From: Burkholderiales bacterium
GTDB taxonomy: Bacteria > Pseudomonadota > Gammaproteobacteria > Burkholderiales > Casimicrobiaceae
Length of the DNA: 12,392 bases
Assembly (NCBI GenBank): GCA_025354075.1
Contig: JANXNO010000471.1
Location: 1 to 12,392 of the forward strand
Reading direction: 5' to 3'
Shown: positions 7,657 through 11,483 of the stretch, one piece after another
Layout of the letters: the number at the start of each line of letters is the position of its first letter
Position numbering within the stretch: the first letter of the stretch is position 1
Translations under genes and position numbers: made by a program
The notes under the pieces: model-generated
What the model was told of the DNA's origin: nothing
The model's input: the letters and a program-made list of their open reading frames with translations, nothing else
The model's database searches: none

Positions 7657-8322
7657 CTAGCCAATCGCCAGCACACGTTTTAAAAACGCAGCAATGTCGT
7701 CCACTTCTTCAGCGCACACCGAATGCGGCATGCCGTATTCATGCCACTCCACTTTGTAGCCGTGGGTGTCTAACCGCGCCTTTGAAAGCTTTGCCAGTAC
7801 AATCGAAATCACCGGATCCATCGAGCCATGCGCATAAAAAATAGGCAGATCCCGATTGCTGCTGGACGCTTCCGCCCCGAGCGTTTCTGCGCAGGCGAGA
7901 TACGTGGATAGCGCCATAATGCCGCCCAATTTTTCCGGGTAGCGCAACCCCGTTTGCAACGCGATTACGCCGCCTTGCGAAAAGCCAGCGAGCACGATGC
8001 GTTTTGATGCAATGCCTTTGGCGCACTGGTCGGCGATCAGCTCATCTATGGCAACAGCGCTCCTGCGAACGCCGACCTCATCTGCGCGCTTGTCCAGCTC
8101 CGCCGCCACAATGTCGTACCAGGCGCGCATGACATAGCCGCCGTTGATGGTGACCGGCATGGTCGGCGCGTTGGGAAAGATGAAGCGCACGGTATGGTCG
8201 CGTGGCAAACCCAGCTCGGGCACCATCGGCACGAAGTCATTGCCATCGGCTCCGAGGCCATGCATCCAGATGACACAGGCGGTGGCCGGGGTTGCGGGTT
8301 CTAAAGTGATGCAGTCGAGCAT
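7657..8322 (-). CDS. Carboxylesterase / phospholipase (alpha/beta hydrolase, Abhydrolase_2 type)
   Basis: This 221-aa cytosolic serine hydrolase acts on short-chain carboxylic or thioesters, and the family also includes acyl-protein thioesterases. It shows the oxyanion-loop motif HGLGADGNDF (21-30), nucleophile elbow GFSQGG (S115), HGSMDPV (D169) and YGMPHSV (H200), giving a complete catalytic triad. The length is typical. The ATG at 8322 (MLDCITLEP) is chosen because homologues begin close to this sequence; the longer reading starts at TTG 8352. No clear Shine-Dalgarno is visible. The gene diverges from the Amt-GGDEF gene and precedes the DUF1853 gene. The natural substrate is unknown. Confidence 0.93.
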   Translation of the reverse strand: MLDCITLEPATPATACVIWMHGLGADGNDFVPMVPELGLPRDHTVRFIFPNAPTMPVTINGGYVMRAWYDIVAAELDKRADEVGVRRSAVAIDELIADQCAKGIASKRIVLAGFSQGGVIALQTGLRYPEKLGGIMALSTYLACAETLGAEASSSNRDLPIFYAHGSMDPVISIVLAKLSKARLDTHGYKVEWHEYGMPHSVCAEEVDDIAAFLKRVLAIG

Positions 8323-8444
8323 GTCCAGCGTCAATAAAAAGCAGTTGAACAATTGTAGGGCGCACGGGCACGTAGCTTGCTTTATTTTTGTGCATAAATG
8401 CCAAAAGTAGGCGGCCCAATCAAAAAGTTACCGATGGATCAATT
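8323..8444. promoter_or_regulatory. Divergent intergenic region, esterase / Amt-GGDEF
   Basis: This 122-base region must carry or adjoin the promoters of two divergent genes. It contains an AT-rich stretch (8377-8400, including TTTATTTTTGTGCATAAAT) that could hold promoter elements, but no well-spaced sigma70 pair. I see no obvious sigma54 GG-N10-GC site, which would have been expected for nitrogen control of an Amt gene. Confidence 0.4.
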
Positions 8445-10328
8445 GTGAGTTCGTTCGACGCTGTGAACACCAGTTGGATACTCATTTGCGCCGTTCTCGT
8501 ATGCATGATGCAGGCGGGTTTCACAGCAGTGGAAGCGGGCATGGTGCGCAGCAAAAACAGCATCAACGTTGCCTTCAAAAACCTGAGCGATTTCTACATC
8601 TCCTGCACGCTGTTCACGCTGGTTGGGTTCGGCTTGATGTTCGGCGCCAGTGCTGGCGGTCTGGTCGGCATTGAGCCCGGCCTCGCGTTCAATGCGCCCA
8701 GCAGCGGATTGCTCGCATTCTTTTTCTTTCAGATGGTGTTTTGCGGCACCGCGACCACTATCGTGTCGGGCGCGGTGGCCGAGCGCATGCGCTTCAGTTC
8801 GTACTGCATTACCGCCGTCATCATCTCGGCGCTGATTTATCCCGTAGTTGGCCATTGGGTATGGGCGGGTGCTTTTGAAGGCAAGTCGACGGGGTGGCTC
8901 GGTCAACTGGGCTTTATCGACTTTGCCGGGTCAACGGTGGTGCATTCGGTCGGCGGCTGGGTGTCACTCGCTGCGGTGTTGATCATCGGACCACGTTTGG
9001 GGCGCTTTGGAGAGTATGGCCGTCCCATTGATGGGCATGATTTGACGATAGCCACGCTCGGGGTTTTTTTGCTGTGGTTCGGCTGGTTCGGTTTCAATGG
9101 TGGCAGCTCACTGGCGATCACCGAAAAAACGCCGATGATCATCATCAACACCGCGCTTAGCGGCGCGGCGGGTGGCTTGTCCGCTATGGCAATCACCTGG
9201 TGGCGCTACGGGGTGCCGGCGGTGGACAAATCGATGAATGGCGTGCTCGCCGGCCTGGTGGCGATCACCGCTGGCTGCCATTTGTTGACGGTGCCGATGG
9301 CGATGTTTGTCGGCGCGGTAGGCGGCGTGGTCTGCGTGTACGGCGCGTCGATGCTTGAACACATGGAAATTGATGATGCGGTCGGTGCGGTGCCTGTGCA
9401 TTTATTCGCGGGCATCTGGGGCACGCTCGCTGTGGCGCTCGCGCCCGATGGTGCGTGGGGCGAGGGCGTGTCGCGCGGGCAACAGTTCGTCAACCAGATG
9501 ACCGGTGTGGTGAGTGTCGCGTTGTATGCGTTCGTAGCGAGCTACGTCCTGCTGTGGGTGGTCAACCGCTTTTTTCCGTTGCGCGTGACGGCGAACGACG
9601 AGCGATTGGGACTCAATTTCGCGGAACACGCGGCGGGCAGCTCACTGCTCGATCTCATCGTGCAGATGGATCGGCAGGCGCGTAAGGGGGACTTTTCGAA
9701 TCGGGTGAATGTGGAGCCGGAGACCGAGGCCGCTCGCATCGCCGTTTTCTACAACGCGGTGCTCGACAAGTTCAATATCGACAATGATCGCCTGCAAATG
9801 GCGATGAAAAAGCTTGGCCAACTGGCTAACTACGATACCTTGACGGGGCTCGGCAATCGGCGCCTGTTCTTCGAAGCGCTGAAGCTCGCGCTAAGCCGCG
9901 TCGACTTGCTCGGCAAGTCGGTGGCGGTGTTCTACATCGACCTGGATCGTTTCAAAATCGTCAATGATCGCCACGGCCACGAGACCGGAGATCACTTTTT
10001 GAAAGAGGCGGCGCGGCGCATGATTGCCGCAGTGCGCGAGCGCGACAACGTGTGTCGCGTGGGAGGGGACGAGTTCGCGATTGTTGCCGAGGGTATTGCT
10101 GATGTTGACGAGGCAATGGCGCTGGCTGATCGAATTCACGCGCGCTTCGCGCTGCCCTTTGAAGTGAAGGGCAAATCGTTCCAGATTCAGGGCTCGATCG
10201 GGCTTTACGTCGTTGCGCCGGGCGGCGAGGAAACGGTCGTCTCGGCCGTCAAAAAGGCTGACGAGGCGATGTATACCGCCAAGGTGGCCGGGCCGTCGCG
10301 AACCCGGCTGTATCAGGACGCAGACTAA
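8445..10328 (+). CDS. Ammonium transporter (Amt) fused to HAMP-like linker and GGDEF diguanylate cyclase
   Basis: This 627-aa inner-membrane protein has an Amt/MEP/Rh channel domain (about 1-378, around eleven hydrophobic helices) and a cytosolic diguanylate cyclase (about 455-620). Residues equivalent to AmtB ligands are present: F95/F99 and F217 (Phe gate), W140, D159, S221, and twin histidines H167 and H319, so the pore looks functional. The Amt tail GLNFAEH (389-395) is followed by a HAMP-like segment, GDFSNRVNVEPETE (415-428) and YNAVLDKF (436-443). The GGDEF domain has DTLTGLGNRRLF, metal-binding D499, GGDEF at 540-544, and an RxxD inhibitory site (R531, D534) five residues before it. 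It probably converts ammonium binding or transport into c-di-GMP output. The GTG at 8445 is chosen because the Amt helix 1 follows at once; the longer reading starts at TTG. No glnK is adjacent. Confidence 0.95.
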   Translation: MSSFDAVNTSWILICAVLVCMMQAGFTAVEAGMVRSKNSINVAFKNLSDFYISCTLFTLVGFGLMFGASAGGLVGIEPGLAFNAPSSGLLAFFFFQMVFCGTATTIVSGAVAERMRFSSYCITAVIISALIYPVVGHWVWAGAFEGKSTGWLGQLGFIDFAGSTVVHSVGGWVSLAAVLIIGPRLGRFGEYGRPIDGHDLTIATLGVFLLWFGWFGFNGGSSLAITEKTPMIIINTALSGAAGGLSAMAITWWRYGVPAVDKSMNGVLAGLVAITAGCHLLTVPMAMFVGAVGGVVCVYGASMLEHMEIDDAVGAVPVHLFAGIWGTLAVALAPDGAWGEGVSRGQQFVNQMTGVVSVALYAFVASYVLLWVVNRFFPLRVTANDERLGLNFAEHAAGSSLLDLIVQMDRQARKGDFSNRVNVEPETEAARIAVFYNAVLDKFNIDNDRLQMAMKKLGQLANYDTLTGLGNRRLFFEALKLALSRVDLLGKSVAVFYIDLDRFKIVNDRHGHETGDHFLKEAARRMIAAVRERDNVCRVGGDEFAIVAEGIADVDEAMALADRIHARFALPFEVKGKSFQIQGSIGLYVVAPGGEETVVSAVKKADEAMYTAKVAGPSRTRLYQDAD

Positions 10329-10334
10329 GGCGGA

Positions 10335-11483
10335 TTAACGAATAATCGCGCCCATGCGGTCGATGGTGACGAAATCGACGTAGCTGCTGCCGCCGCGCTT
10401 CAGGTCGGCGAAATCAACGCTCATACCACCAAGATCGAGTGCACGTAACGCTTTCATCGCGATGCTTACGCCCTCGGGGGTAGCCTTGCCGCGTTGCAGC
10501 GCGGCAACAATCACGCGCGCCGTGACATAGCCTTCTAGCGAACGGGTGCCGTAGTCAGCCGAAGGGGCGGCCGCCTTGAGCTTCAGGTATTCGCGAATGA
10601 TCGGCAATGAGGTGCGCGACTCGACCGGGCCAACCGTAGATGCAACGTAGCCGCGCAGCAGATCTTTGCTGAGTTGCTTTTGCAGGTAGGAAATGTCGAC
10701 CGGTGACGGTCCGATCAACATGGCGTTGCCGCCCCGCTGCTTGTAGGCCTTGATGAAGCTGGCGGCGGGCGCAGAAATTGCGGCCAGAAAGATGACCTGT
10801 GCGTCCACCTTTAGCAGCGCGGCGACCGCCGGTTCAACGTTGCCGGTGATGCGGTCGTACGGGCTTTTGGCCAGTAATTCAATCTTGTATTTGGGCGCCA
10901 GCGCGGTCGCACTCGCCAGCAAGTCGCGACCGTAGCCATCGTCCTGAAACAGCACGGCAACGCGGGTCAGACCCATGCTGTTTAACGTGATAAACAACTG
11001 ATTGACTTCATCGGCATAGCTCGCTTTGGTGACGAACACGCCGGGCTGGCCGATCACGCTGGACGCACCAGAACTCGGGCCGATCAATGGGATGCCGCTG
11101 CTTGTCAGCACGCCTGCCTTGATCAGTGCGTCCGCGTTTGCCGTGCCGACAGTCGCCGCAAACGCCACCGGGCTTTCGCGGGTGATGGTTTCCCGGGCGA
11201 GACGAACGGTGTCCTCGGGCTTGTAGGCGTCGTCGACCGACACCAGACGCAGCGGCGAGCCGTTGATGCCGCCGCTTGCATTAACTGCGTCAAATCCGAG
11301 ACGCAAGCCCGCTGCGTAGGCTTTTCCTGCAACCGCCTGAACGCCGGTCAGTGGCGCGATTTGCGCTATGACAATGTCTTTGGCTGTCACGGCGCTGGGT
11401 GCAGCGAGTCCAAGGCTAAAAAGCAGTGTTGGCAGAAGTGCGCGCATAGCGGTTGTGCCCGCCGATGCATTGAACCGAAACAT
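10335..11483 (-). CDS. Periplasmic substrate-binding protein, branched-chain amino acid (LivK) type
   Basis: This 382-aa ABC-transporter binding protein has an N-terminal signal peptide: positive R14, hydrophobic ALLPTLLFSLGLAA, likely cleavage after AVTA (residue 34). The mature protein starts KDIVIAQIAPLTG, the first strand of a Peripla_BP_6 fold. It continues with DAVNASGGINGSPL, DDAYKPEDTVRLARE and IPLIGPSSGASSV, as in LivK-like proteins. The ATG at 11483 has GGAG 6 bases upstream. The ligand cannot be read from sequence; this family binds amino acids, amides, urea or aromatic acids. No permease or ATPase gene is next to it, so it is an orphan here. It lies 123 bases downstream of the dehydrogenase on the same strand, and its stop is only 6 bases from that of the convergent Amt-GGDEF gene. 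Confidence 0.93.
   Translation of the reverse strand: MFRFNASAGTTAMRALLPTLLFSLGLAAPSAVTAKDIVIAQIAPLTGVQAVAGKAYAAGLRLGFDAVNASGGINGSPLRLVSVDDAYKPEDTVRLARETITRESPVAFAATVGTANADALIKAGVLTSSGIPLIGPSSGASSVIGQPGVFVTKASYADEVNQLFITLNSMGLTRVAVLFQDDGYGRDLLASATALAPKYKIELLAKSPYDRITGNVEPAVAALLKVDAQVIFLAAISAPAASFIKAYKQRGGNAMLIGPSPVDISYLQKQLSKDLLRGYVASTVGPVESRTSLPIIREYLKLKAAAPSADYGTRSLEGYVTARVIVAALQRGKATPEGVSIAMKALRALDLGGMSVDFADLKRGGSSYVDFVTIDRMGAIIR

Follow-up and report, generated by a model that had tools for sequence, protein, structure and literature searches.

A 12,392-nucleotide stretch of contig JANXNO010000471.1 (assembly GCA_025354075.1) from a Burkholderiales bacterium of the family Casimicrobiaceae, referred to here in its full length as the window, encodes a protein that joins an ammonium transporter (Amt) domain through a linker to a GGDEF diguanylate cyclase domain. 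Its sequence makes it very probable that the protein is an ammonium receptor of the Sd-Amt1 type, which would convert external ammonium into a cyclic di-GMP (c-di-GMP) signal. The first-pass annotation of this DNA had proposed an ammonium-to-c-di-GMP receptor, and this remains the best reading given a solved homologue deposited as 'Receptor Sd-Amt1'; its inference about transport does not stand, and it had noted neither the two-ammonium site nor the HAMP-like linker found here. Ks-Amt5 of Candidatus Kuenenia stuttgartiensis (PDB 6eu6) has an Amt sensor domain and two-ammonium-site residues in common with the window protein and serves as the reference for residue positions. The fusion gene has the following features.

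8445..10328, + strand: Amt-linker-GGDEF fusion gene, GTG start, 627 amino acids
8475..9635, + strand: Amt domain (Pfam), residues 11-397, with pore residues F99, W140, H167, F217, S221 and H319 intact
8511..8591, + strand: first half of the predicted two-ammonium site, Q23, E30, N46 and D49 (Q24, E31, N47 and D50 in Ks-Amt5, PMC5764959)
8757..8768, + strand: second half of the predicted two-ammonium site, T105 and S108 (T109 and T112 in Ks-Amt5)
9636..9824, + strand: HAMP-like linker, residues 398-460, predicted helices 400-414 and 428-462 with a 13-residue connector
9825..10292, + strand: GGDEF diguanylate cyclase domain (Pfam), residues 461-616
9939..9941, + strand: metal-binding D499, identical in 120/120 homologue rows
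10035..10046, + strand: RxxD product-inhibition site, R531-D534, with R in 94/120 and D in 96/120 rows
10062..10076, + strand: GGDEF motif, residues 540-544 (from the sequence)

The three parts lie in one open reading frame, with Pfam matches to Ammonium_transp at residues 11-397 (E 2.8e-113) and to GGDEF at residues 461-616 (E 2.1e-43), which confirms the earlier claim that a single frame joins a complete Amt to a GGDEF domain. The N terminus read from the GTG start is in register with Sd-Amt1 and Ks-Amt5, and the ribosome-binding site before it looks weak by eye. The residues named in the first-pass annotation (H167, H319, F99, F217, D499, GGDEF 540-544 and RxxD 531-534) are all found at those numbers, and D159, also named there, is invariant in an 81-row alignment. 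A total of 8000 homologues were scored and the best 120 listed, one of them (P0002) being the window protein itself with a later start site. Both Pfam domains are present in 120/120 of these best-listed homologues, and the best PDB sequence match, 8qj3/8qj4 (644 residues), spans window residues 9-618 (E 1e-142). The join is real and chance is excluded because the best 120 of the 8000 homologues all have both domains. An assembly or annotation artefact could be suspected from the fragmentation of the assembly (689 contigs) and because a search of 63 further genomes of the family gave no full-length match. This explanation was rejected and is almost certainly wrong: independent homologues carry the same join, four of them (P0003-P0006) on other contigs at 83-90% identity with the identical continuous Amt-GGDEF frame and no domain-separating frameshift, and a full-length homologue exists in the PDB.

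The solved homologue is Sd-Amt1. PDB entries 8qj3 and 8qj4 are titled 'Receptor Sd-Amt1' in the OFF-state and the ON-state, 8qpf is from Shewanella denitrificans, and all were released on 2024-06-12. Full-length sequence alignment identifies the deposited chain as an Amt-GGDEF protein; the structural comparison with these entries covers the solved Amt domain only. The Amt-GGDEF architecture is already known and the window protein is not a first, since this homologue is deposited as a receptor with ON and OFF states. We take the three entries to belong to Pflueger et al. 2024, who reportedly describe in Sd-Amt1 a two-ammonium site and an Amt module that a HAMP domain connects to a diguanylate cyclase. 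Like the window protein, Sd-Amt1 has a complete Amt domain and a C-terminal GGDEF domain, and its ammonium-site letters are identical (QENDFTS). The Amt domains are 48% identical; Sd-Amt1 differs in having GGEEF for the window's GGDEF and K in place of R531. PMC11377263, PMC12245846 and PMC12300582 cite this paper of Pflueger et al. (Sci Adv 10 eadm9441). An ammonium-sensing histidine kinase is what PMC11377263 cites it for, together with a 2018 paper, and PMC12245846 cites it for possible dual transporter and sensor roles of Amts; neither of these passages mentions a cyclase. A literature search whose coverage did not extend to the 2024 paper's own text found no paper studying an Amt-GGDEF protein. 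Amt domains joined to other domains were observed before, according to PMC10433425, which cites Tremblay and Hallenbeck 2009, and the variety of Amt fusions as such is not new.

Ks-Amt5 holds two ammonium ions via Q24, E31, N47, D50, T51, T109 and T112, as described in PMC5764959. The window residues at these positions are Q23, E30, N46, D49, F50, T105 and S108, with F50 and S108 in place of T51 and T112. Q, E, N, D and T105 are each conserved in 119/120 homologue rows and S108 in 118/120. The AmtB of the same genome (L004, its frame cut by the contig end) follows a P-II gene and has T, Y, V, V, F, A and V at the same positions, with none of the Q23, E30, N46, D49, T105 and S108 residues that the window protein keeps. 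The site Q, E, N and D are likewise replaced in Escherichia coli AmtB (3c1h alignment, by eye), which has GlnK, a PII protein, as partner where the window protein has a fused output. A two-ammonium site is predicted in the window protein, and it would bind ammonium as in Ks-Amt5. The output differs from that of Ks-Amt5, which has a histidine kinase where the window protein has GGDEF and so falls outside the sensor kinases.

The first-pass annotation had reasoned that with the twin His pair intact the protein may transport and sense at once. This does not follow, because Ks-Amt5 keeps the His pair, the Phe gate and the selectivity filter, yet does not translocate ammonium, according to PMC5764959 and PMC10433425. 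Transport through the window protein is probably lost or minor. A PII gene beside amt is usual, though not universal, for AmtB-type transporters, and tblastn with the own-genome P-II protein matched no PII-like gene in the window.

Secondary structure prediction for residues 398-460 returns a helix at 400-414, a 13-residue connector and a helix at 428-462. A linker profile was compared with a HAMP profile built from 14 HAMP stretches of the same genome, 13 of them over the Pfam cut-off, and the match had a score of 23.2 (E 1.5e-4, probability 52%, 30 columns). The best of 100 column shuffles scored 15.3, and the maximum among nine further 67-residue stretches of the family was 13.1. The linker, to go by these profiles, is HAMP-like but diverged; Ks-Amt5 is described as being without a HAMP-type module. 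No gap falls within the linker when the window protein, Sd-Amt1, L006, L007, L008, L016, L009 and L018 are aligned, and behind the linker stand a kinase with a receiver (L006), a PAS-GGDEF-EAL module (L007), a SpoIIE phosphatase (L008, L016), a methyl-accepting chemotaxis protein (MCP) module (L009) and a PAS-kinase (L018). Identity to the window over 60 columns ranges from 37/60 in L005, a GGDEF protein, down to 11/60 in Sd-Amt1 and L016. The register is kept while the outputs differ, which supports a role for the linker in signal transmission. The linker in this form is not common to the HisKA_3 fusions L050, L052 and L066 or to the MCP fusion L020. A homology search with the linker alone returned 36 proteins, all Amt-GGDEF, and revealed no other outputs, which were instead met in a species-level genome collection.

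The GGDEF domain keeps its catalytic residues. Among the 120 rows, D499, G540 and E543 are conserved in 120 and G541, D542 and F544 in 119. The RxxD site lies nine residues before the GGDEF motif, the spacing seen in PleD. This conservation argues for catalysis. Many GGDEF domains are enzymatically silent, and on these general grounds the domain could instead be a non-enzymatic docking or GTP-binding module attached to an Amt part that acts as an ordinary permease. We consider this very unlikely with the metal and GGDEF residues kept in 119-120 of the 120 rows. The window protein is also distinct from DgcN/YfiN, as its match reaches 164 bits, well short of the NCBIfam cut-off of 325, and YfiN has a periplasmic sensor and not an Amt domain.

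Several observations weigh against a receptor. The distribution of the site was determined in a species-level genome collection from the best 80 of 592 confirmed loci, an uneven sample chosen by similarity to the window protein. In 20 of these loci the Amt continues into a longer C-terminal part, and the other 60 are stand-alone. The full set of Q, E, N and D is present in 15/20 fused loci, and four more have Q, E, N and T (L018 is cut before the site). The same four residues occur together in 41/60 stand-alone Amts. The ammonium site was accordingly rejected as a sensor-only mark, and its presence is not by itself the sign of a sensor. The HAMP assignment has its own weak points: the profile match spans just 30 columns, in the second half of the HAMP domain; Pfam HAMP fails to match the window protein even with a threshold of E 1, and the 4/50 aligned members that it does match at E <=1, led by L009 at 5.6e-5, stay under the curated cut-off; and linker identity between the window and Sd-Amt1 is low, at 11/60. 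Finally, of the three bulky pore-blocking residues, all present in Ks-Amt5, the window protein keeps one (F26) and has V29 and M33 at the other positions. With two of the three blockers lacking, the protein may be a transporting receptor.

The pore residues bear on a second explanation, in which the protein is a working transporter whose GGDEF domain reports transport turnover (a transceptor), so that flux and not site occupancy would set c-di-GMP. All pore residues are intact, V29 is small, M33 is the same as M30 of the transporter Af-Amt1 (PMC5764959), and stand-alone Amts beside PII-like genes have the same ammonium site. PMC12245846 cites the 2024 work in support of dual roles. Against a transceptor, Ks-Amt5 with the same pore residues is described as not translocating, F26 is bulky where Af-Amt1 has V23 (PMC5764959), the genome has a separate P-II/AmtB pair and the window has no PII-like gene. 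We judge a transceptor to be unlikely. The equivalent of F26 is F in 79/79 loci reaching that position, fused or stand-alone.

For the receptor, these features suggest the following mechanism. The Amt domain would form the usual trimer of its family, and ammonium would enter at the outer vestibule, and two ions may be held in the buried site formed by Q23, E30, N46, D49, T105 and S108. Occupancy of the site would shift the cytoplasmic end of the Amt domain and the conserved GLN..EH tail. The HAMP-like linker would relay this shift and alter the pairing of the GGDEF domains, and the paired domains would produce c-di-GMP subject to product inhibition at RxxD. Nitrogen uptake would be left to the separate PII-AmtB pair of the genome.

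The stand-alone Amts that carry the site differ from the fused proteins in genomic context. A PII-like gene was found by tblastn with the own-genome P-II protein in the fetched stretch of 33/41 stand-alone loci with Q, E, N and D, and a check of four such matches confirmed them as Pfam P-II. Over the whole sample, 1/20 fused and 46/60 stand-alone loci have a PII-like gene (Fisher p 1.1e-8, shared ancestry uncorrected; some scanned loci are short, with L016 at 4.6 kb and L018 at 7.0 kb). Without ten Pelagibacteraceae loci the fused count is 1/10 (p 1e-4, shared ancestry uncorrected). The sole fused locus with a PII-like gene is L020. No discussion of the site in stand-alone Amts was found in the accessible literature. 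A longer loop 5 is present in the four stand-alone examples inspected.

Positions that separate the two groups were sought between 34 fused rows (the window, Sd-Amt1, Ks-Amt5, 11 loci and every sixth of the 120 homologues) and 37 of the 41 stand-alone rows with the site. Those left out were L022, L025 and L043, which lie beside the fused clade in the tree, and L062, a second Psychrobacter locus with the site letters of L043. The fused versus stand-alone residues are G/P at 219, P/S at 317, L/G at 320, R/G at 344, N/D at 391, R/K at 187 and A/G at 331, with milder differences at 42 (V/I) and 111 (V/M). Several of these positions flank the Phe gate (219), the second pore His (320) and the start of the linker (391). 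No single position is absolute, because Ks-Amt5 is fused and has G at 320.

Amt-domain trees made by a quick method, with support from the Shimodaira-Hasegawa-like approximate likelihood ratio test only, place 30/31 fused rows on one branch inside the stand-alone Amts (support 98 in one tree and 95.9 in another). The tree contains 13 fused loci; seven further fused loci, all Pelagibacteraceae, were left out. L020, an Amt-MCP fusion of Orenia metallireducens, is the only one of the 13 outside the fused clade and falls among stand-alone Amts. A single origin of all fusions was rejected, as forcing the 31 fused rows together gave p 1.5e-6 in the approximately unbiased (AU) test, with the constraint grouping set by architecture and the position of L020 already seen in the first tree. 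Sd-Amt1 groups in the quick tree with SpoIIE and PAS-GGDEF-EAL fusions. Separate origins of the Sd-Amt1 and window GGDEF fusions are nonetheless unsupported, as a single clade of simple GGDEF fusions is not rejected (AU p 0.39).

The fusion gene is accessory in its genus. It was found in 1/17 genomes of the genus (E 1e-60) and 1/64 of the family (E 1e-80), the one in each case being its own genome; 13/17 and 38/64 of these genomes are of good quality, and a few absences may be gaps. The genes on either side are the following.

7657..8352, - strand: carboxylesterase/phospholipase-type gene (PF02230), upstream, bordering the unoccupied site on one side; relatives conserve the start at ATG 8322
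10335..11483, - strand: periplasmic binding protein gene (PF13458), downstream, the other flank of the unoccupied site

The intervals between the fusion gene and these neighbours are window 8322-8445 and 10328-10335; the downstream gene is convergent, with six bases between its stop and the fusion stop. In seven genomes of the genus the site is unoccupied, and the binding-protein and esterase genes adjoin with no fusion between them. In L150, the nearest of them with flanks 89-90% identical, the interval between the stop codon of one gene and the conserved start codon of its neighbour is 71 bases. The fusion gene shows no shift in G+C, and the repeats within 8300-10400 are short with none flanking the gene. 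Either gain in this lineage or repeated loss may account for this pattern. Elsewhere in the same genome, a further Amt frame (L002) has one internal TAG and is either a pseudogene or the product of a sequencing error. A divergent stand-alone Amt (L003) has HEIDFAS at the site and a long branch, and visual inspection of the frames listed nearby showed none that is PII-like.

Other Amt fusions in the sample have different outputs. Ten single-cell or metagenome-derived Pelagibacteraceae genomes (L008, L010-L017 and L019) encode Amt-linker-SpoIIE proteins with a PP2C-type phosphatase domain and a QENDFTS site, possibly ammonium receptors with a phosphatase output in streamlined genomes. A literature search combining SAR11 with an ammonium transporter and SpoIIE returned no paper. 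The Amt-HAMP-like-MCP fusion of Vibrio sinus (L009) is a candidate ammonium chemoreceptor. In Orenia metallireducens, two PII-like matches lie ~1.7 to 2.4 kb past the end of the L020 fusion frame.

The window protein adds a well-preserved member to the young class of ammonium receptors, with the PII-linked AmtB of its own genome as an internal contrast. The site invoked for receptor function is common to stand-alone PII-linked Amts, and one linker register serves several outputs. The shared site and the single linker for many outputs thus raise two testable questions, by which features transporters and receptors differ, and how outputs that work in pairs are driven by a sensor that is a trimer. 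It is an evenly balanced proposition that the two-ammonium site is older than the receptors and belongs to a large PII-linked stand-alone class, within which the receptors would mainly form one nested branch that dropped PII, gained a HAMP-like adaptor and swapped cyclase, kinase, phosphatase and chemoreceptor outputs. If so, many Amts annotated as plain transporters would either need the site for transport or act as ammonium sensors by way of PII, and other positions would mark receptor function (320 L versus G, 219 G versus P and 391 N versus D).
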